Positions 6,563 through 63,259 of a stretch of DNA of 64,000 nt are shown here, in pieces. Under the pieces are notes generated by a model. The model was given only the letters and a program-made list of their open reading frames with translations. It was not told where the DNA came from and did not search any database. The DNA comes from Bacteroidota bacterium (lineage in GTDB: Bacteria > Bacteroidota > Bacteroidia > Cytophagales > Cyclobacteriaceae), in contig JAFEAL010000006.1 of NCBI GenBank assembly GCA_018266435.1, positions 62,001-126,000 of the forward strand, in the 5' to 3' direction. The translations under genes were made by a program, and so were the position numbers. Every line of letters starts with the position of its first letter. Positions within the stretch are counted from its first letter, which is position 1.

Positions 6563-7864
6563 TTAGTATTCAGTTGCTGCTGGTGTAAGTAATTTCTGTC
6601 TTCCTATTTTTTCAAGATATGTATGAATAGGCAAAATCAAAATTGCTAACACAACATTGGCTATAAGCTTGAGAGAAGGCTCTGTGCCGGAAATTTTACT
6701 CACTATGGGGTCACTCACCACAAGCAGAAATTCAAACAACAGTAGTAACCCTATTAAAATCATAGCTGACATTATGCGCTTGGAAAATAGCTTGCGGCCT
6801 GAAAAGACAACAATAAAAAAAACTAATACCGCAACAGAGATGACGAGGTATTCCATGTTATCTCTTCTGGATAACCGGGCTGCCTCTCGCAGGTCTTGCT
6901 CCTTTTTTTCTTTTTGAGATAACAAAAACTCATATTCATTAGCTATTTTTTGAACTTCAAGCCGGTAGTTATTTTGCTGCAGCGAATCTTTCAAAATAAG
7001 GCATTGTTTTAGTATGCCCAGTGCCCGGGAAGTTTCTTTACGTTGCTCAAGAAGCTCGGCAAAATCAAGGTTGGCAAGAAGTAAAGTCTGGGTATAGCCT
7101 TTTATTTTTGTTAAAGGTTCTAACGTGGTATATGCCGAGTCGGATTGGTGCATGACTAACTGCAGGTGACCGATCAATTGCTTGGCCCAGGTTGTTGCTG
7201 TGTTGTCATGAGTTGCCCGAAACTGACTTTGAGCAAGTTTAGCCAGCTTCAGGGCTTCTGGCCACTTTTCTTGCTCGTTAAGTGTTTGACTGATGTTTAT
7301 CTGGGCATAACCGGTGCCCAACGGATCTTTTGCCTGTAGCCGATAAATCAATGCTTCCTGATAGCTCTCAAGAGCTTTATCAAATTCTTTCTTTGTTAAA
7401 TAGATGTGTCCTATATTGATATGACTGAAAGCCAGACCGCCAATGTCTTTGGTTATTTTTTTATACCGAATGGATTTCAAAAAATACTCCAACGATTTTT
7501 CTTCGTTGCCGATTTCCGAATAAACCATCCCTATCGCATTCAATACTATGCCTAAGCCAAACGAATCATGGCATTGCTCGAAGTATTCCAACGCCTGGGT
7601 ATAAAACTGAAATTTTTTAAACAGTTTTCTTTCATGCCAACCCAATCCATACGAGGCATATCCTTTGCCCCGCGTGTAGGCAAGCTGGTCAGACAGTTGT
7701 CTTACTTTTTCAAGGTAGTACAATGAACTGTCGCGGTTGTTGTACCAAAATTTTTTACTCTTTGTGTAGAATTGATCGGCCTTGCTGGTATCGCTCGTTT
7801 GGCCGTAAGATTGAACAGCATATAACGGAAGAAGCCCAATCCATAAATACATCAATCGATTCAT
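6563..7864 (-). CDS. Exported TPR-repeat protein with C-terminal membrane helices
   Basis: A 433-residue protein with a signal peptide (ending SYGQ at about residue 22), about five to six tetratricopeptide repeats between residues 30 and 290, a coiled coil around 290-325, and three hydrophobic helices (about 333-352, 360-378, 395-415). The layout is that of the sensor half of Bacteroidota TPR histidine kinases or TPR-LytTR/LuxR regulators, but it stops after the membrane helices without an output domain. The start codon overlaps the stop of the hydroxy acid dehydrogenase gene as ATGA, implying translational coupling. No function can be assigned. Confidence 0.75.
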   Translation of the reverse strand: MNRLMYLWIGLLPLYAVQSYGQTSDTSKADQFYTKSKKFWYNNRDSSLYYLEKVRQLSDQLAYTRGKGYASYGLGWHERKLFKKFQFYTQALEYFEQCHDSFGLGIVLNAIGMVYSEIGNEEKSLEYFLKSIRYKKITKDIGGLAFSHINIGHIYLTKKEFDKALESYQEALIYRLQAKDPLGTGYAQINISQTLNEQEKWPEALKLAKLAQSQFRATHDNTATTWAKQLIGHLQLVMHQSDSAYTTLEPLTKIKGYTQTLLLANLDFAELLEQRKETSRALGILKQCLILKDSLQQNNYRLEVQKIANEYEFLLSQKEKKEQDLREAARLSRRDNMEYLVISVAVLVFFIVVFSGRKLFSKRIMSAMILIGLLLLFEFLLVVSDPIVSKISGTEPSLKLIANVVLAILILPIHTYLEKIGRQKLLTPAATEY

Positions 7865-9117
7865 AATAGTATGTTTTCCTTCGATATTTCTGAAACAGAT
7901 TTGCAGCCCGCCAATCCCATCGTCAATTCAAAATCAGTGATCATGTTTTGCAAAACTTCTTTTACGCCTTGTTCACCACCTGCCGCCAATCCATAGACAT
8001 ACGGCCTACCGATACAAACCGCTTTTGCACCAAGAGCAAATGCTTTAAAAATATCGGCACCCCCGCGAATGCCGCTGTCCATCAGCACAGGAATTTTATT
8101 TTGAACAGCATCAACTATTGAAGGCAATGCCGCAATCGTGCTGATGCTTCCGTCCACTTGCCGTCCACCATGGTTTGAAACAATGATTCCATTCATTCCA
8201 AAATCAACAGCTTTGCGCGCATCATCGGCATGAAGAATACCCTTGAGTAGAACGGGAAGATTAGTTACCTCTCGTAAATACTTTAAATCATCCCATGCTA
8301 AAGCGGGATTTGAATAAATGCTGATAAATTTTTGTACGGCTTTAATTTGTCTTCCGGAAAATAGTTTTGAAAAAAAACTAGTGCCCGGATAATTTTTTGT
8401 CATTTGAATAAGGCCGTTGATACTTTGCCAGGTGATTTTTCTTTTGGTTTGCGGCTCGGCTTCGTCCATCAGTTTTTGAAAAACAGGATCGGAAGTATAT
8501 TGAGCAATGCCTCTCCCTTCGAGAAATGGAAGGTATGCCATCTCCAGATCGCGTGTACGCCAGCCGAGCATCGTAGTATCAAGCGTGACAACAATGGCTG
8601 AGCATCCGCATTTTTCAGCACGCTGCACAAAACTTTTTACCAACTCGTGCGATTTACTCCAATACAATTGAAACCAACGCGGATTATTTCCCATCACAGA
8701 AGAAACTTCTTCCATCGATCGCGAAGCCTGACTTGAAAAAATATAAGGAATATTAACTGAAGCGGCAGCTTTGCCCACGGCAACATCGGCATCCTTGTGA
8801 GCTAATTCTAAAACACCAACCGGGGCAATTAAAATTGGTGAATGAAATTTTTGTCCGAACAATTCAATACTGGCATCGCGCACACTCACGTTACGCAACA
8901 TGCGTGGTATGATTTTTATTTTTTCAAAATCATTTTGATTAGCGCGAAGGGTACTTTCATTTCCGGCCCCGCCTGCAAAGTAGGCAAAGGAGTGAGGCAA
9001 TAATTTATTTTGCACAGCTTTTTCCAGTTCGCAAAACGAAACGGGTACCGTAGGCTTGATTCCAGCGAACCCATCAAGATAAATTTCGCGTTGCCGGGTG
9101 AGCGATTCTACTACCAT
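7861..9117 (-). CDS. FMN-dependent alpha-hydroxy acid dehydrogenase/oxidase (LldD / lactate oxidase-like)
   Basis: A 418-residue TIM-barrel flavoprotein. The family signature SNHGGRQVDG is present with the catalytic base His316. The phosphate-binding 'DSGIRGGADIFKA' and 'GAKAVCIGRPYVYGL' segments follow. It oxidises an L-2-hydroxy acid such as lactate or glycolate to the 2-oxo acid and passes electrons to quinone or oxygen. Sequence alone does not decide between dehydrogenase and oxidase or fix the substrate. It is the first gene of a minus-strand run and overlaps the TPR gene by 4 nt (ATGA). Confidence 0.85.
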   Translation of the reverse strand: MVVESLTRQREIYLDGFAGIKPTVPVSFCELEKAVQNKLLPHSFAYFAGGAGNESTLRANQNDFEKIKIIPRMLRNVSVRDASIELFGQKFHSPILIAPVGVLELAHKDADVAVGKAAASVNIPYIFSSQASRSMEEVSSVMGNNPRWFQLYWSKSHELVKSFVQRAEKCGCSAIVVTLDTTMLGWRTRDLEMAYLPFLEGRGIAQYTSDPVFQKLMDEAEPQTKRKITWQSINGLIQMTKNYPGTSFFSKLFSGRQIKAVQKFISIYSNPALAWDDLKYLREVTNLPVLLKGILHADDARKAVDFGMNGIIVSNHGGRQVDGSISTIAALPSIVDAVQNKIPVLMDSGIRGGADIFKAFALGAKAVCIGRPYVYGLAAGGEQGVKEVLQNMITDFELTMGLAGCKSVSEISKENILL

Positions 9118-55847: not shown

Positions 55848-57386
55848 ATGAAAAACTTCATTGTTTCAGTCTTGTTATTTTTTGGTTTTCAGACGCAAGC
55901 ACAGGAAGTGATTTATCATGTATTTCAACGCAGCTTTTTTGATAGTAATGGTGATGGACACGGAGATTTGAAAGGCATGCAACAAAAGCTTGACTACCTG
56001 CAAGATTTGGGGGTGACTTCAATCCTGCTGACTCCACTATACCAATCAGAATTCTATCATAATTACTTTGCCACAGATTTTGAAAAAATTGACTCCAAAT
56101 ACGGAACGTTGGACGAATACCTGAGCTTGGTAAAAGAAGTACACAGGCGTAACATGAAAATTTACCAAGATGTGGAAATGCAATACGTTACCCATGAACA
56201 CGCATGGTATAAAAGCTCATACGGGCATCCTCACTCGCCTTATTCAAACTATGTGTATTACGAGGACAGCCTAAATCTAAAGCCATTCTTTTTTTATAAC
56301 ATACCTGAGTTTACTACCTATAACAACCTGAAGCAAAAAATTGCCGTGGTGAATATGAATAATCCGGCTGTAAGAAAATATACATTTGATGTTTTAAATT
56401 TTTGGGTTGACCCCAACAAAGACGGAAGATTTGATGATGGCGTAGATGGGTTTCGGCTCGACCACATGATGGATGACCTGGATAATTTCAAAAAATTACC
56501 ACACCTCTTTAAAAATTTCTGGACACCAGTGCTTACCAGCCTAAAAAAAACAAACCCCAGCATTAAGATTATTGCCGAGCAGGCCAACTGGTTTTCACTT
56601 GGCCGGGAATATTTTCGCGAAGCAGCCGTAGACCGGGTATTTGCATTCTACTTAAGCTGGGCCATTGAAAAAATGGATAAGAAAGAACTCATCAAAGCAG
56701 CCGATAGCACACTCACTAAAAACTATGAAGGCAAAGAACAAATTGTATTTATTGAAAATCATGACACCCGCAGATTGGCATCCGTTTCTGGCATGAATCA
56801 GGGAAAATTAAAAATTGCGGCTACACTTAATTTATTGCTGGGCGGAATTCCCTTGATTTATTACGGTCAGGAGATAGGCATGACGGGCAAACAGCTAAAA
56901 GGCAAGACCGATGGGAACGATATTCCTATTCGCGAAGCTTTTGAATGGACTGCCAATGCAACGGGTAAAGGCATGACTTTTTGGTACAAAGGCACCGGGC
57001 CATGGTGGGACAGTACCCATGTTAAGCCATTTGATGGAATTTCGGTAGAAGAACAACGGAACGACCCGCAGTCATTGTTCAACTATTATAAAAAAATGAT
57101 TCAGTTGAAGAAGTCATACCCGGCATTGGCACAGGGAAAATATCAAGACGTAGAAAATGATAACAACAAAATATTTTCTTTTTTGAGGTACACCCATACT
57201 GAAAAATGTTTGGTTGTAGTAAACTTGTCAGATAAACCACAACAGACTATCATTAGCTCAGGGAATGAAAAATTTAAGACTGCAAAAAGCTTATTGAGTA
57301 ACGAAAATCTAAAACTGATAAATAACGAAAGCCTATCTCTTGCCATGCCTCCTTATGGAGTACAAGTTTATAAATTAGCCCGATAG
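55848..57386 (+). CDS. Secreted alpha-amylase family (GH13) glycosidase
   Basis: A 512-residue exported enzyme with a signal peptide (ending QTQAQ at about 19). The GH13 barrel has the nucleophile Asp205 in DGFRLDHM, the acid/base Glu244 in 'IIAEQANW' and the third carboxylate Asp306 in ENHDTRR. Region I is unusual ('YQDVEMQYVTHEH' instead of DxxxNH). A calcium-type loop 'DSNGDGHGDLKGM' is near the N-terminus. A C-terminal beta-domain ends the protein. Specificity (amylase, glucosidase or trehalose-type) is open. It lies 41 nt after the GH127-like gene in the same operon. Confidence 0.88.
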   Translation: MKNFIVSVLLFFGFQTQAQEVIYHVFQRSFFDSNGDGHGDLKGMQQKLDYLQDLGVTSILLTPLYQSEFYHNYFATDFEKIDSKYGTLDEYLSLVKEVHRRNMKIYQDVEMQYVTHEHAWYKSSYGHPHSPYSNYVYYEDSLNLKPFFFYNIPEFTTYNNLKQKIAVVNMNNPAVRKYTFDVLNFWVDPNKDGRFDDGVDGFRLDHMMDDLDNFKKLPHLFKNFWTPVLTSLKKTNPSIKIIAEQANWFSLGREYFREAAVDRVFAFYLSWAIEKMDKKELIKAADSTLTKNYEGKEQIVFIENHDTRRLASVSGMNQGKLKIAATLNLLLGGIPLIYYGQEIGMTGKQLKGKTDGNDIPIREAFEWTANATGKGMTFWYKGTGPWWDSTHVKPFDGISVEEQRNDPQSLFNYYKKMIQLKKSYPALAQGKYQDVENDNNKIFSFLRYTHTEKCLVVVNLSDKPQQTIISSGNEKFKTAKSLLSNENLKLINNESLSLAMPPYGVQVYKLAR

Positions 57387-57441: not shown

Positions 57442-58122
57442 TTACTTAAGGTTTTCCAAATCGTAAATAAGGATTCTTCTCCGATCAAAGTTTAAAAATT
57501 TCTTTTCTTGTAAATCATTGAGCACCGTAGTAACAGTTTGCCTTGATGTACCGGTGAGTGTGGCAATATCTTTATGTGTGAATTTTGTATAGATGATGGT
57601 TTCGTAGCCGGCTTTCAGACCCTTCCATGCGGCAGCATCTTTGAGAAACTCTACAATTCTTGTTCGTGCGTCTTTGAATACAAGCGATTCTAATTTCCGT
57701 TCAACTTTCATTAATCTCAAACCAATTAATTTAATGATTTTGAAATTTAATTCACGGTCCTTATACATTAATTGCTGCAGTTCGTGAATGCTCAACGTGC
57801 ATGCAACCGTGTCTTGTTCGGCAAGGGCAAAATCATTTCTTTTTTCTTCTCCGGCAAGCGCCAATTCACCGAATATTTCACCCCGCACTAATATGGCGTT
57901 GGTTACTTCTTGCCCACCGGCTAAGTAATGACCAATTCGCACTTGACCTTCTGATATCAAATAAATATGTGTAGAGTGATCTTTTAAAGAGTAGATGTTT
58001 TGACCCTTTTTATATTTTTTAAAAACATGTGTATGTGTTTGGTTCATCTTCTTCACTTTGTGTGGGCAAAGAATGTTGTATAAATCAACACACTCAAAAT
58101 ACCATATTGCGGATGGGTTCAT
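57442..58122 (-). CDS. Crp/Fnr family transcriptional regulator
   Basis: A 226-residue regulator starting MNPSAIWYFECVDLYNILC, the usual Bacteroidota N-terminus, with Cys and His residues (ECVDLYNILCPHK) that may bind metal or sense redox state. A cyclic-nucleotide-binding-like domain ('GQNIYSLKDHSTHIYLISEGQVRIG', 'GEIFGELAL') precedes a helix-turn-helix 'HKDIATLTGTSRQTVTTVLNDL'. It is divergent from the YHS-DoxX-DinB-ATP-grasp-LysE operon with 111 nt between and is its likely regulator. The longest frame starts 24 codons earlier, but that extension is not family-like. Confidence 0.88.
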   Translation of the reverse strand: MNPSAIWYFECVDLYNILCPHKVKKMNQTHTHVFKKYKKGQNIYSLKDHSTHIYLISEGQVRIGHYLAGGQEVTNAILVRGEIFGELALAGEEKRNDFALAEQDTVACTLSIHELQQLMYKDRELNFKIIKLIGLRLMKVERKLESLVFKDARTRIVEFLKDAAAWKGLKAGYETIIYTKFTHKDIATLTGTSRQTVTTVLNDLQEKKFLNFDRRRILIYDLENLK

Positions 58123-58170
58123 GGCCCTAAAATTAGAGCATTTATAAATAAATATAAAGCAAATGTCGGC

Positions 58171-58193
58171 TGCATTACATTTAGATAAATGCA
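58171..58193. promoter_or_regulatory. Candidate Crp/Fnr operator
   Basis: TGCATT (58171-58176) and AATGCA (58188-58193) form an inverted repeat, and inside it CATTTA-GA-TAAATG (58178-58191) is a tighter 14-bp dyad. It sits between the divergent regulator and the YHS operon. TACATTTA at 58177-58184 is one mismatch from a -7 box. Confidence 0.4.
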
Positions 58194-58233
58194 AACCTCG
58201 TTATTTAGCGCGAACGTTATTACCAAAACATTT

Positions 58234-58710
58234 ATGAATAGTAAAATTTGTTTTCTCATAACATTGATGGTGTGTGCAACCGGTCTGATGGCACAGTCGG
58301 TAGAGGTTCGAAAAAAACAATTTAATATTGAAGAGTCGGGGCTTGCTCTTCAAGGGTATGATCCGGTTGTGTACTTTGTAAACAATAAAGCGGCTAAGGG
58401 CAAACCTGAAATCTCAATCCTAGTTGAGGGTGTCATATACCGATTTACATCAGAGAAAAATAAAAACACTTTTTTAACGAACCCATCAAAGTACGAACCG
58501 CAATACGGAGGATGGTGTGCTTATGCCATGGGATCAAATGGAAACAAAATAGAAATTGATCCTGAAACTTTTAAAATAACCGATGGCAAACTATACCTGT
58601 TTTATAACAAATTTTTTACTAACACTTTAAAAGAGTGGAATAAAAATGAAGTGCCGTTAAAAACAACAGCTGATAAGAATTGGGAAATATTTATTCACCA
58701 CAAGCCATGA
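58234..58710 (+). CDS. Exported YHS domain-containing protein
   Basis: A 158-residue protein from the ATG at 58234, with a signal peptide (MNSKICFLITLMVCATGLMAQ). The YHS region is 'ALQGYDPVVYFVNNKAAKGKPEI...YRFTSEKNKNTFLTNPSKYEPQYGGWCAYAM'. YHS domains are linked to metal binding and are often found next to redox or thiol systems. First gene of a five-gene operon. Its stop overlaps the DoxX start as ATGA. Confidence 0.85.
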   Translation: MNSKICFLITLMVCATGLMAQSVEVRKKQFNIEESGLALQGYDPVVYFVNNKAAKGKPEISILVEGVIYRFTSEKNKNTFLTNPSKYEPQYGGWCAYAMGSNGNKIEIDPETFKITDGKLYLFYNKFFTNTLKEWNKNEVPLKTTADKNWEIFIHHKP

Positions 58711-59117
58711 CTACAAAGCAAAAAAATTTGATCGGTTGGATTTTTAGAATAGCAGCAGCAGCTATTCTGTTACAAACATTGTTTTATAAATTTACCGCAG
58801 CACCCGAATCGGTTTATATTTTTTCAACTTTGGGAATGGAACCATGGGGAAGAGTTGGTATTGGTGCGATGGAGTTGGTAGCTTCCGTTTTACTGATAAT
58901 ACCAGGGGCTACCGTGTTCGGTGCAGGTTTAGCAATTGGCCTGATGAGCGGTGCAATTTTTTTTCACCTGACTAAACTAGGCCTTGTTGTGCAAAATGAC
59001 TCAGGTTTATTGTTTGCTTATGCCTGTACCGTATTATTTTGTTGTTCGGTTCTCGTTTTTATGGACAAGGCAAAACTATTTTTTATCATAATGAAACTCA
59101 AGAAAAAATTATTTTGA
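58707..59117 (+). CDS. DoxX family membrane protein
   Basis: A 136-residue protein with four transmembrane helices. The DoxX-type N-terminus is 'GWIFRIAAAAILLQTLFYKFTAAPES', and 'MELVASVLLIIPG' is in helix 2. The family includes thiosulfate:quinone oxidoreductase subunits and many uncharacterised redox-linked membrane proteins. Start at 58707 (ATGA overlap with the YHS stop). The DinB-like gene follows after 2 nt. Confidence 0.8.
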   Translation: MTTKQKNLIGWIFRIAAAAILLQTLFYKFTAAPESVYIFSTLGMEPWGRVGIGAMELVASVLLIIPGATVFGAGLAIGLMSGAIFFHLTKLGLVVQNDSGLLFAYACTVLFCCSVLVFMDKAKLFFIIMKLKKKLF

Positions 59118-59119
59118 AT

Positions 59120-59641
59120 ATGGAACTTACCCATCTGCTGACTACAATTATCAACCAATTGAAACAATTGCTGCTTGCTGTAACCAATGAGCAATATTGT
59201 GAGCAAATACCTGTGTTGTCACACGCTACCATTGGGCAACACACACGCCACATTATTGAATTTTTTATTGAACTTAATCATGGGTACAAAACAGGCCGCG
59301 TAAATTATGATGCCAGAAAACGGGATATAAAAATTGAAACGGATAAAAATTGTGCATTATCACAGTTACAATTGATAATAGAAAATTTAAAAAAAGAAAA
59401 CAAAGCATTGATGCTTATTGCTGATTTTAATTTGAATAATAAATCTTCTTACGCCATACCAACTAATTTTGAACGTGAACTGGTGTACAATCTTGAGCAC
59501 ACCATTCATCACATGGCGCTTATTCGCATAGGTGTGCCCGTTATTTCATCCATTGTTTTACCTGATAATTTTGGTGTAGCGGTGGCTACAATAAAACACA
59601 GGTCAGTATCTTCTCATAGTAATGAACACGTATATGCTTGA
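59120..59641 (+). CDS. DinB-like four-helix bundle protein
   Basis: A 173-residue protein. 'SHATIGQHTRHIIEFF' and 'NLEHTIHHMALIRIGV' supply a plausible metal-binding His triad (His41, His127, His131) as in the DinB/YfiT-like superfamily. 'GRVNYDARKRDIKIETD' is a distinctive motif. DinB-fold proteins include thiol S-transferases (bacillithiol, mycothiol) and enzymes such as EgtB's N-terminal part; the reaction here is unknown. The start at 59120 follows DoxX by 2 nt. The ATP-grasp start lies within its last codons. Confidence 0.75.
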   Translation: MELTHLLTTIINQLKQLLLAVTNEQYCEQIPVLSHATIGQHTRHIIEFFIELNHGYKTGRVNYDARKRDIKIETDKNCALSQLQLIIENLKKENKALMLIADFNLNNKSSYAIPTNFERELVYNLEHTIHHMALIRIGVPVISSIVLPDNFGVAVATIKHRSVSSHSNEHVYA

Positions 59642-60695
59642 CGCTGTTCGTTGGAAGCTCAGACGCTTTTTTATCCGGTTGCTGCATTGGGAATATTGGC
59701 CAATGAAAATCACGTATTTTCCGTTGCTTCCCTATTGGTGTTGGCTCAGCATCAAGGCGCGGTCATTTTTCTTCTTCAGTGCTGCTAATCCGAGCATTCA
59801 ATACGCTGGGTTCATACAAGAACGTAAGAGCAACATTTACAAATTAATTCCCCAGCAATTTTATCCCCAAACTGTTTTCTGCTCAGCAAATGCAACACTC
59901 CATGAAATTGAATTACAGTTGCAAAAACAAAATTTTACTTTTCCATTAATTGCCAAACCTGATATTGGCGAACGTGGCGTGCAAGTAAAACTGATTCATT
60001 CACTCGATGATTTGAAGTTGTACAGCCGGCAAAGTAAAGTTGATTTTTTGTTACAAGAATTTATTGATTACGACTATGAAGCAGGTATTTTTTATTACCG
60101 GATTCCCGGAGAAAATCAAGGTCACATTTCAGGCATTGTAACGAAAGATCTTTTAGCCGTAACGGGTAATGGCCAGTCGAATATAGAAGAGTTGCTTCAA
60201 CGAAACGACCGATCGGTGTTACAAATACCAACATTAAAATCCATATACGGAGATTACCTCGAAACGGTATTGCCTGAGGGGAAAACGCAAACGCTTGTGC
60301 CGTACGGCAATCATTGTAGAGGAGCAAAATTTGTTGACGAAAGTTTCAGAATCAATAATAAGCTCAGCAACAGCATAGATCAAATTTGTAAACGGATACC
60401 GGGATTCTACTTTGGAAGATTAGACATCAAATTTAAAAGCTGGGAAGATCTGGAAAACGGAAAACATTTTTCCATCATCGAACTCAACGGGGCAGGAAGC
60501 GAGCCTACACACATTTATGACCCGTCACATTCGCTGTTCTATGGCTGGGCTGAAATATGCAAACATTGGAAACTACTTTATCAAATAAGCCTGATCAATT
60601 CGCAGCAGTTAAGTATACCGTTAATGTCCTTTACACAAGGAATGGAAATGAAAAAAGCACACGAGCTACATTTAGCATTAATGACACAGGTATGA
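59622..60695 (+). CDS. ATP-grasp enzyme (D-Ala-D-Ala ligase-like)
   Basis: A 357-residue protein with an N-terminal hydrophobic segment (about 25-55). The ATP-grasp fold is shown by 'FPLIAKPDIGERGVQVK' with Lys112, 'LLQEFIDYDYEAGIFYYR' for the adenine-linker region and 'IIELNGAGSEPTHIYDP' with the Mg-binding Glu287 and Asn289. Such enzymes join a carboxylate to an amine via an acyl phosphate. A second start at 59634 is possible. The LysE-like exporter gene begins in an ATGA overlap with its stop, suggesting product export. Confidence 0.8.
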   Translation: MNTYMLDAVRWKLRRFFIRLLHWEYWPMKITYFPLLPYWCWLSIKARSFFFFSAANPSIQYAGFIQERKSNIYKLIPQQFYPQTVFCSANATLHEIELQLQKQNFTFPLIAKPDIGERGVQVKLIHSLDDLKLYSRQSKVDFLLQEFIDYDYEAGIFYYRIPGENQGHISGIVTKDLLAVTGNGQSNIEELLQRNDRSVLQIPTLKSIYGDYLETVLPEGKTQTLVPYGNHCRGAKFVDESFRINNKLSNSIDQICKRIPGFYFGRLDIKFKSWEDLENGKHFSIIELNGAGSEPTHIYDPSHSLFYGWAEICKHWKLLYQISLINSQQLSIPLMSFTQGMEMKKAHELHLALMTQV

Positions 60696-61333
60696 AGCCC
60701 AACGCAAAGCTTTTTTTTACTACGATGGCCATAAGCTTTTTAGGTTCATTACCCTTGGGTATTCTCAATATAAGTGTTGCCAATTTTACGTCTCATGATG
60801 ATCTTGCTTCAGCATTTGGTTTTTCTGTCGCAGCCATTTTTGTAGAAATGGCGTTCGTTCGTATCGCGCTAACGGCAATCAAACAATTTGAAAAGCTGAA
60901 GCGTTATTTGCGTTTTTTCAGTTTACTCACCAGTTTTTTATTGTTGATGTTGTCGTTTAACACACTGGCTGCTGCTTACCAGAGCGAACCGTTTCACTCT
61001 GATTTACCTTTATCGGCCGGTAATCCCGTTTTATCAGGGTTATTGCTTAGCGTTATGAATCCATTGCACTTACCTTTTTGGATGAGTTGGATTGTCCTAT
61101 TGAAATCGAACAGATTATTAAATGATAAGCCTTCTGCATACAATTATTTTATATGCGCAATTGGTATAGGCACAGCCGCAGCTTTTTTTCTTTATGGCAT
61201 TGCCGGGAGTTATGTAGTCAGGCTATTCAGGAGTCAACAAACAGGACTTAATTGGGTTGTAGGAATAATTTTATTGGTTTCTGCTTTGATGTTACTTTAC
61301 AAAAATCACATCAAGACTTTCTACAAACTCTGA
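60692..61333 (+). CDS. LysE-like membrane transporter
   Basis: A 213-residue protein with about six transmembrane helices. 'SFLGSLPLGILNISVANFTS' resembles the LysE/RhtB N-terminus (the 'PGP' region reads 'LPLG'), and 'NPVLSGLLLSVMNPLHLPFWMSWIVLLK' matches the internal repeat. The family exports amino acids and small dipeptides. Last gene of the operon. Start at 60692 overlaps the ATP-grasp stop (ATGA). The longer in-frame start is inside the ATP-grasp gene and not family-like. Confidence 0.75.
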   Translation: MKPNAKLFFTTMAISFLGSLPLGILNISVANFTSHDDLASAFGFSVAAIFVEMAFVRIALTAIKQFEKLKRYLRFFSLLTSFLLLMLSFNTLAAAYQSEPFHSDLPLSAGNPVLSGLLLSVMNPLHLPFWMSWIVLLKSNRLLNDKPSAYNYFICAIGIGTAAAFFLYGIAGSYVVRLFRSQQTGLNWVVGIILLVSALMLLYKNHIKTFYKL

Positions 61334-61837: not shown

Positions 61838-63259
61838 TTACAAACTCCATCCTTGCCTGTATTCTCTTTTTACAAAGGCATTGGCTTCATCAAAGTTGGT
61901 AATCTTCATGTTCTTGGCATCCCACAATAATTTTTTTCTTCCTGGATATGAAAACCCACGGCCGTTTTCGTTTTGTTTTTGAAACTGGTAACTGCGTACG
62001 GCCAGGTTGCCCATGAGCACGGCCTCGGTCATTGGTCCGGCATATTCAAAAGGAGAGCTCAATTGTTTTTTACCATACCCGGCCAGACAGGCATCTACCC
62101 ACTCAGTGTAGTGTCCTTTTTCACCGCCAGTAATGCGAGGAATGGTTGGTTTCGGCAACCTCACTTCCTTCATTCGTTTGGTGGGCAACAAGGTAGGAGG
62201 CATGTTATAGTCGCCCATCAGTTTTCCTTTCGTGCCGTGAAAAATATAGCCTCCGGCCGAGTCGCCCAGTTGCTCATCGGGCAAGAGTTCTTCGGGTCGC
62301 TCGGGCAACAATCCTCCGTCCATCCAAGTAAATTTGATTTCGCCTTTTCCATCTTTGCGTGGAAACTTCAAGTGAATGATGGAAGAAGATGGGCATGCAT
62401 CGGCATAATTAGCTACTTTAAAAAAATCTTCCCAAGCCGTGGTGGTGCTGCACTCTACTTCGCTCGGGTAGTCAATTGGCAAAATACGGAATGCGGCATC
62501 CATGATGTGGCAGGCCATGTCGCCTAGCGCACCGGTGCCAAATTGCCACCACCCGCGCCAGTTAAAAGGAACATAAGCGGGGTTGTAGTCAATATATGGT
62601 GTGGGGCCAAGCCATAACTCCCAATCGAGTTCTTTAGGCACATCATATTTTCCTGTTGGCTTGGGTATGCCCTGCGGCCACACGGGCCGGTTGGTCCAGG
62701 TTTCTACGCGCGTTACTTTGCCGATAAGCCCGGCATCTACATATTCTTTTGCGGTTCTAACGAAATCGGCAGAAGCATACTGGTTTCCCATTTGTGTTAC
62801 TACTTCATATTTTTTGGCTGCCTCGGTAAGCATGCGTGCTTCATAGATATCATGGGTCAATGGTTTTTGTACATAGACATGTTTTTTGCGGCTCATGGCC
62901 GCCATGGCAATGACTGCGTGTGTATGATCAGGGGTAGAGACGGAAACAGCATCAATGTTTTTTTCTTCCTTGTCGAGCATCTCGCGGAAGTCTTTGTAGT
63001 ACTTGGCTTGTGGGAAATTCTTTACTGACTCTGTGGCCTGGCGGTCGTCTACATCACACAAAAAAGCAATTTTGGCTTTGGGGTTAGCCGCAAAACCGGT
63101 AAGGTCGCTGGTGCCTTTGCCGCCCGCACCGATGCCGGCAACATAGAGTGTGTCGCTGGGTGGGGTGAATCCGTTGCCTCCCAACACAAAGCGGGGAAGG
63201 ATGGTGAAAGCGGTGGCGGCTGTGGCAGCCTGTGTGATAAATTTTCTGCGGGAGATCAT
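61838..63259 (-). CDS. Tat-exported Gfo/Idh/MocA family oxidoreductase
   Basis: A 473-residue oxidoreductase with a twin-arginine signal (MISRRKFITQAATAATAF), a Rossmann loop 'GIGAGGKGTSDL' and the family 'VQKPLTHD' (the EKP motif as QKP). The C-terminal half carries 'WRGWWQFGTGALGDMACHIMDAAF', typical of the exported Bacteroidota branch. It is larger than the member at 317-1654 and not a close copy. Substrate unknown, probably a sugar or glycoside. Monocistronic. Confidence 0.88.
   Translation of the reverse strand: MISRRKFITQAATAATAFTILPRFVLGGNGFTPPSDTLYVAGIGAGGKGTSDLTGFAANPKAKIAFLCDVDDRQATESVKNFPQAKYYKDFREMLDKEEKNIDAVSVSTPDHTHAVIAMAAMSRKKHVYVQKPLTHDIYEARMLTEAAKKYEVVTQMGNQYASADFVRTAKEYVDAGLIGKVTRVETWTNRPVWPQGIPKPTGKYDVPKELDWELWLGPTPYIDYNPAYVPFNWRGWWQFGTGALGDMACHIMDAAFRILPIDYPSEVECSTTTAWEDFFKVANYADACPSSSIIHLKFPRKDGKGEIKFTWMDGGLLPERPEELLPDEQLGDSAGGYIFHGTKGKLMGDYNMPPTLLPTKRMKEVRLPKPTIPRITGGEKGHYTEWVDACLAGYGKKQLSSPFEYAGPMTEAVLMGNLAVRSYQFQKQNENGRGFSYPGRKKLLWDAKNMKITNFDEANAFVKREYRQGWSL

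Follow-up and report, generated by a model that had tools for sequence, protein, structure and literature searches.

Mutation of human TANGO2 leads to metabolic disease, and the activity of the protein is disputed; its role in heme has reportedly been challenged in one paper (PMC12782551). In the parts of the source papers that we consulted, TANGO2 is presented as a heme-trafficking protein (PMC10470608), as a protein that binds acyl-CoA, with acyltransferase activity ruled out (PMC11867700), and, by structure, as a cysteine Ntn-hydrolase (PMC13044924). The family to which it belongs, TANGO2/NRDE (PF05742; HtpA in Shewanella), is one of the described systems against which we compare the locus reported here; the others are the cyanophycin synthetases CphA1 and CphA2, the OlsB/OlsA (GlsB/GlsA) aminolipid loci, and the DinB/YfiT proteins BstA, mycothiol S-transferase, the N-terminal domain of EgtB, and ClbS. 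The locus is an operon encoding YHS-domain, DoxX-like, DinB-like, ATP-grasp, and LysE-type proteins in a 64,000 nt stretch (the window) of the genome of a member of the Cyclobacteriaceae (contig JAFEAL010000006.1, positions 62,001 to 126,000). We find that this gene group recurs across Bacteroidota and usually contains a TANGO2/NRDE gene, and we give about even credence to the idea that it makes and exports a small amide-linked compound.

Results

Five Packed Genes around an ATP-Grasp Protein

The operon lies on the forward strand. A YHS-domain frame (58189-58710) is followed by genes for a DoxX-like membrane protein (58707-59117), a putative metalloenzyme of the DinB/YfiT fold (59120-59641), a putative ATP-grasp amide ligase (59622-60695), and a LysE-type translocator (60692-61333), whereas a Crp/Fnr-family regulator (57442-58122; PF00027, 59.7 bits; PF13545, 45.8 bits) is encoded divergently on the reverse strand. 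The YHS and DoxX frames overlap by 4 nt (ATGA), as do those of ATP-grasp and LysE; 2 nt separate DoxX from DinB, and the DinB and ATP-grasp frames overlap by 20 nt, with no open reading frame (ORF) between them. The initial annotation had described just such a packed run opposite a Crp/Fnr gene, and all of its ORFs are where it placed them, although 58123, from which it started the run, marks the boundary of Crp rather than of any operon gene. Its family names also stand, by Pfam for LysE, DoxX (DoxX_2), and Crp (cNMP_binding and HTH_Crp_2), by NCBIfam for YHS, and by predicted fold for DinB and ATP-grasp.

The ATP-grasp protein scores below the Pfam cut-off, with RimK as its sole and weak listing (15.1 versus 21 bits); the ATP-grasp fold was confirmed by structure prediction. 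The best matches of the predicted fold in the PDB were cyanophycin synthetase, bifunctional glutathione synthetase, LysX/ArgX, RimK, and Ddl, and the sequence profile agrees with them. These are folds of amide- and peptide-bond ligases, so the model favors the ligase class that had been suggested for this protein. K112, K175, D268, E287, and N289 are invariant in 54 sequences; this Lys and Asp/Glu/Asn set presumably forms the ATP/Mg site. The LysE protein exceeds the PF01810 cut-off (29.8 versus 25.6 bits) and has five hydrophobic segments over threshold.

The Gene Group Recurs across Bacteroidota

Two sets of loci were compared. A phylum-wide draw of 395 genomes yielded 73 with the ATP-grasp, among them the genome of the window; 50 regions were fetched, representing 51 of the 74 non-window places, and of the 23 left out, 22 have long frames in more distant families. 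A named set comprised the best 80 of at least 587 confirmed relatives, found by alignment query and therefore selected for similarity to the window. One region (L079) was excluded as a weak match missed by the ATP-grasp profile, leaving 130 loci (49 from the draw, the 80 named loci, and the window), among which three contigs are present in both sets and counted twice (L031/L087, L035/L122, and L038/L156). ORF calling used a crude script that takes the longest ORF, and a run was defined as genes on one strand with gaps below 250 bp, a rule that can split a real operon: at L144, DinB and NRDE lie directly upstream and yet the locus was scored without them.

Within these runs the ATP-grasp gene is accompanied by DinB in 110 loci, NRDE in 101, DoxX in 72, LysE in 72, YHS in 71, and Crp in 24. 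All five genes of the window operon share one run in 10/49 draw loci and 29/80 named loci, the latter including Chitinophaga, Puia, Pedobacter, Mucilaginibacter, Parachryseolinea, and Flavobacterium; at least three of the four partners of ATP-grasp do so in 18/49 and 50/80, respectively. The initial annotation had proposed a neighborhood search anchored on the ATP-grasp protein, and this search finds the five genes together in several families, ruling out a gene order unique to this genome. We also compared ORFs within four genes of ATP-grasp (near; 997) with those further away in the same loci (far; 920). DinB (110/997 near versus 3/920 far), LysE (72/997 versus 0/920), NRDE (80/997 versus 2/920), and DoxX (67/997 versus 9/920) were strongly concentrated near ATP-grasp, and YHS more weakly (73/997 versus 32/920). 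These counts imply that the grouping is not a matter of chance.

Two further features of the neighborhood were seen in few loci. A stand-alone gene for a DFP domain (CoaB-type phosphopantothenate-cysteine ligase; Pfam tested on L094) lies inside the run in 5/130 loci, for example at L094:5614-6297, L085:5644-6312, and L160:5562-6215, and may point to a substrate of the pantothenate or cysteine type. At four loci of one family (f7; L058, L061, L064, and L067), ATP-grasp stands without its usual partners, close to a sugar-isomerase-type gene that we take to resemble MurQ.

The Usual Sixth Gene Is of the TANGO2/NRDE Family

The five-gene composition originally proposed had missed a member: in most relatives examined, a TANGO2/NRDE Ntn-hydrolase gene sits between DinB and ATP-grasp. 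Both operon NRDE copies tested exceed the PF05742 cut-off (51.1 and 36.6 versus 22.6 bits). Among 80 stand-alone copies, Cys2 and the Arg-Asp-Glu motif are kept in all and Asn18 in 73, and 20 of the 21 copies fused to ATP-grasp start M/V-CTV. The end of DinB and the start of NRDE overlap by exactly 13 nt in 92/99 pairs, and the overlap reads ATGTGYACAGTAA in the four examples printed.

The window operon has no NRDE gene. In a 131-row tree built by a quick method, its ATP-grasp falls in a branch of 14 rows, of which 10 are NRDE-fused and 4, the window among them, are without NRDE; support for this branch (SH-aLRT 94) is just below the starred level of 95. Because the window copy nests among NRDE-fused ATP-grasps, loss of NRDE in its lineage is the simplest reading. 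Parachryseolinea (L088) is likewise without NRDE, and there the DinB gene (7447-7953) ends in an altered copy of the overlap, ATGCGCACAGTAA, which in our reading of the sequence is a fossil of NRDE gene loss; the end of the window DinB holds no trace of the overlap. The only PF05742 match in the window genome is a gene on another contig (C23, 126401-127129), which fits the general TANGO2 model (250.7 bits) better than the operon-type profile (26 bits). It starts with Met-Cys, and its neighbors, named by eye, are thioesterase-like and lumazine-synthase-like.

The window operon itself was likely acquired by transfer from a donor resembling Chitinophagaceae or Sphingobacteriaceae, the loss of NRDE either preceding or following that event. 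In a draw of 118 genomes of the window's family, 72 have the ATP-grasp, with a best near-full-length identity, the window apart, of 46% (a 226-aa fragment reaches 48%), whereas the window protein is 61-63% identical to that of Chitinophaga filiformis; the transfer reading follows from this difference. The other four window proteins likewise have nearer counterparts in operons of the fetched set than in the four same-family loci compared, although outside ATP-grasp the reading depends on these few loci.

Fusions Join the ATP-Grasp Domain to Hydrolases and Translocators

The ATP-grasp domain forms the C terminus of three kinds of single-frame fusion. Fusion to NRDE occurs at 21/130 loci (2/49 draw, 19/80 named). 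A LysE-ATP-grasp protein is encoded at L071 (565 aa) and in a second, 78%-identical cluster, P0242 (567 aa). The third kind, alpha/beta-hydrolase-VTT-ATP-grasp, is found at 8/49 draw loci, all on a single tree branch, and Rhodothermales, Acidobacteriota, and Thermoanaerobaculia are among the names attached to proteins of this architecture. Across the three kinds, ATP-grasp is thus joined to an Ntn or alpha/beta hydrolase, to LysE or VTT as a membrane translocator or lipid-transport-type domain, or to both a hydrolase and such a domain. The fusion to LysE, seen in one lineage, ties the ligase to the exporter. LysE also lies beside, or is fused to, ATP-grasp at five loci with no DinB or NRDE in the run (L055, L065, L069, L070, and L071); at L055 both genes are found a few genes off on the opposite strand, and L144, a sixth locus of this class, was not counted because of its upstream DinB and NRDE. 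Together, the pattern of fusion partners and these five loci favor the view that a ligase works with an exporter.

Two counts weigh against that view: DinB and NRDE occur without LysE in 37/130 runs, and in 9/130 the ATP-grasp gene is kept without any of DinB, NRDE, LysE, or VTT. The latter loci, like the varying membership of YHS and DoxX noted above, would fit a loose co-regulated stress cluster whose genes have no common product and are packed for co-expression only. We consider this very unlikely; repeated fusion of hydrolases and transporters to ATP-grasp and a fixed 13-nt overlap between DinB and NRDE are hard to square with co-regulation alone.

The triple fusions raise a different alternative, that the product is an acyl-amino-acid lipid whose head group is extended or capped by ATP-grasp and which is flipped by LysE or the VTT domain. 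The eight proteins, of 826-905 aa, carry a VTT (DedA) domain between the alpha/beta-hydrolase and ATP-grasp (L072-L078 and L080), and beside them are genes for an OlsB-type GNAT in 8/8 runs, a PlsC-type acyltransferase in 7/8, and DinB in 6/8 (PF13444 and PF01553 being tested on L077 only). What these genes form looks like a separate lipid-modifying locus, and because of the two acyltransferases a lipid product may apply in the VTT-fusion lineages. The acyl-CoA binding of TANGO2 (PMC11867700) and its cysteine Ntn-hydrolase structure (PMC13044924), as far as the consulted parts of these papers describe them, would also suit a lipid, but the same part of the former rules out acyltransferase activity. 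Furthermore, an OlsB or PlsC label appears in 0/80 named runs, and the N terminus of ATP-grasp is not a clear membrane segment by hydropathy (4/101 above 1.6). PF13444 has no match in the window genome, whereas the controls, E. coli and Bacteroides ihuae, were positive, and an OlsB-type aminolipid substrate is therefore unlikely in this organism. As an account of the operon in general, we regard a lipid product as quite unlikely.

The DinB, YHS, and DoxX Proteins

Like ATP-grasp, the DinB protein scores below its Pfam cut-off (20.8 versus 24.8 bits). Searched against the PDB as a single sequence it gave only viral fusion-protein rows, at E 0.08 or worse, and as a profile one DinB-like row at E 0.13. 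Because these rows were weak we turned to fold comparison, and the predicted structure has the DinB/YfiT four-helix fold with a conserved His set, presumably metal-binding, although with Foldseek alone the best DinB match, at E 0.0036, did not reach the level of E ≤ 0.001.

The initial annotation had connected this protein with low-molecular-weight thiols. The fold class does include bacillithiol and mycothiol transferases, which keeps that connection alive, but it also holds ClbS and proteins of no known function. A thiol-based redox module would make DinB a bacillithiol-type S-transferase, with ATP-grasp building or extending a thiol peptide and LysE exporting conjugates for detoxification; YHS and DoxX, and in some relatives AhpC/TSA, thioredoxin, MsrB (SelR), DM13, and YceI, would then belong to the same stress response. 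Redox-type neighbors of this kind (AhpC/TSA, DM13, YceI, SelR, thioredoxin, and DUF1223) are indeed found in some relatives, and YceI is enriched close to ATP-grasp (17/997 near versus 3/920 far). By contrast, no near enrichment was seen for DM13 (13/997 versus 10/920), AhpC/TSA (5 versus 10), CMD (5 versus 7), or thioredoxin (2 versus 7). BshC is present in 384/395 genomes, and is so widespread that it is uninformative about the operon and cannot single out bacillithiol as a specific partner. Overall, we judge a thiol module to be unlikely.

The YHS protein falls below the Pfam cut-off (21.7 versus 30.3 bits) but well above that of NCBIfam NF041384 (129.5 versus 70 bits), which describes a YHS-domain (seleno)protein; its G-G-x-C motif, with Cys110, is kept in 73/73 aligned sequences. 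Of 73 operon-near sequences, 97% keep Met16 of the frame that opens at 58189, and a signal-peptide-like segment starts at this residue, implying that the true start is probably 58234 rather than 58189 and that the protein is probably exported. Many Chitinophaga-type operons have two tandem YHS genes, of about 156 and 147 aa, upstream of DoxX (L082-L085 and L087-L090); the window has one. DoxX just exceeds the PF13564 cut-off (27.5 versus 26.3 bits), has four hydrophobic segments by hydropathy, and keeps His96 and Asp107 in 67/67 aligned sequences.

The Crp/Fnr Neighbor and Flanking Genes

Including that of the window, 35 Crp genes lie within eight genes of ATP-grasp, 8 of them divergent (the window's among these) and 27 co-directional, and Crp is not enriched near ATP-grasp (6/997 near versus 35/920 far). 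The window protein shares 31-34% identity with its seven closest matches in the fetched loci. The initial annotation had noted Cys and His residues near its N terminus and proposed control by a redox or metal signal. Of 34 aligned relatives, one is a fragment; of the 33 that cover the region, none has Cys or His at the three Cys/Cys/His positions, 22 have one Cys at another place in the wider region, and none has two. The residues are thus specific to the window protein among the copies compared, and sensing of such a signal through them is not supported. Nor is an Fe-S sensor of the FNR type, since the 33 relatives show no conserved N-terminal Cys cluster.

In the divergent intergenic region, a 20 bp inverted repeat, TTACATTTA-GA-TAAATGCAA (58175-58194), is a possible, weak candidate for an operator. 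The genome holds no second site at ≤2 mismatches, so no regulon is visible, and 30/100 shuffles of the window contain at least one match at ≤3 mismatches. The count of promoter- and terminator-like sites did not exceed that in shuffles.

On either side of the operon and its Crp neighbor are, by Pfam, an alpha-amylase-family gene (55848-57386) and a GFO/IDH/MocA oxidoreductase gene with a signal-like N terminus (61838-63259), both functionally unrelated to the operon as far as seen.

Discussion

Recurrence of the gene group, the ligase fold of ATP-grasp, and its fusion to LysE all speak for the make-and-export proposal of the initial annotation, whereas redox or metal sensing through the N-terminal Cys and His residues of Crp is not supported. 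In a make-and-export unit, the ATP-grasp protein would couple a carboxylate to an amine at the expense of ATP, as its fold group suggests, and the LysE carrier would take the product across the inner membrane, as would be consistent with the LysE-ATP-grasp fusion elsewhere. DinB might modify the substrate or the product, possibly with a thiol cofactor, and in most relatives examined the N-terminal-Cys Ntn-hydrolase of the TANGO2/NRDE group would edit or trim the amide. Judging by family and location, the exported YHS protein and membrane-bound DoxX may serve as redox-type accessories, either at the inner membrane or outside it. We suggest, though only weakly, that the operon is probably under the control of the divergent Crp/Fnr protein.

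The component families are known, but their combination appears to be undescribed in the literature we searched. We found no paper that pairs NRDE/TANGO2 with ATP-grasp, a VTT domain with ATP-grasp, or a YHS domain with DoxX, and none that brings together any three of NRDE, ATP-grasp, DinB, and DoxX, although preprints and most subscription papers were outside the scope of the search, making this absence weak evidence. Among the matches listed on NRDE/DinB operons in Bacteroidetes, no title concerned this operon, and a search for ornithine lipids with ATP-grasp turned up a single review, which does not pair the two and mentions ATP-grasp nowhere but in the title of a reference.

A broader conclusion would be that Bacteroidota share an undescribed pathway, kin to the ATP-grasp fusions named Rhodothermales and Acidobacteriota, by which the cell produces, trims, and exports an amide-linked stress metabolite, with a TANGO2-type Ntn-hydrolase as one of its enzymes. 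We regard this as unlikely. If true, it would add a conserved make-and-export system, and the NRDE-ATP-grasp fusion would offer a tractable lead on what is cut by TANGO2-fold enzymes, about which opinion is still divided among heme transport, acyl-CoA binding, and hydrolase activity. Fusion and a fixed overlap would link an amide ligase to TANGO2-type proteins, whose activity could be tested in bacteria.

Compared with the known systems, the operon NRDE protein shares the Met-Cys start and the NRDE motif of the TANGO2/NRDE family; it forms a divergent subgroup, matching the human TANGO2 structure only at E 0.48, and differs from the described members in sitting with, or on, an ATP-grasp. The cyanophycin synthetases CphA1 and CphA2 are about 14% identical to the window ATP-grasp, and only over model residues 29-321; their chains have about 585-877 residues against 357 aa in the window, and length, Pfam, and the CphA1-aligned part show no further cyanophycin synthetase domain in the window ORF beyond ATP-grasp. 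To our knowledge, none of the other gene families of the operon takes part in cyanophycin metabolism. The OlsB/OlsA loci are related through distant homologous ATP-grasp-VTT fusions that adjoin OlsB-type and PlsC-type acyltransferases, whereas the window operon has neither acyltransferase. Finally, the window DinB has the fold and the His set in common with BstA, mycothiol S-transferase, the EgtB N-terminal domain, and ClbS, but is only 7-17% identical to the DinB-type chains listed, and the operon subgroup to which it belongs is marked by its own invariant residues, Arg43, Arg66, and Arg119.

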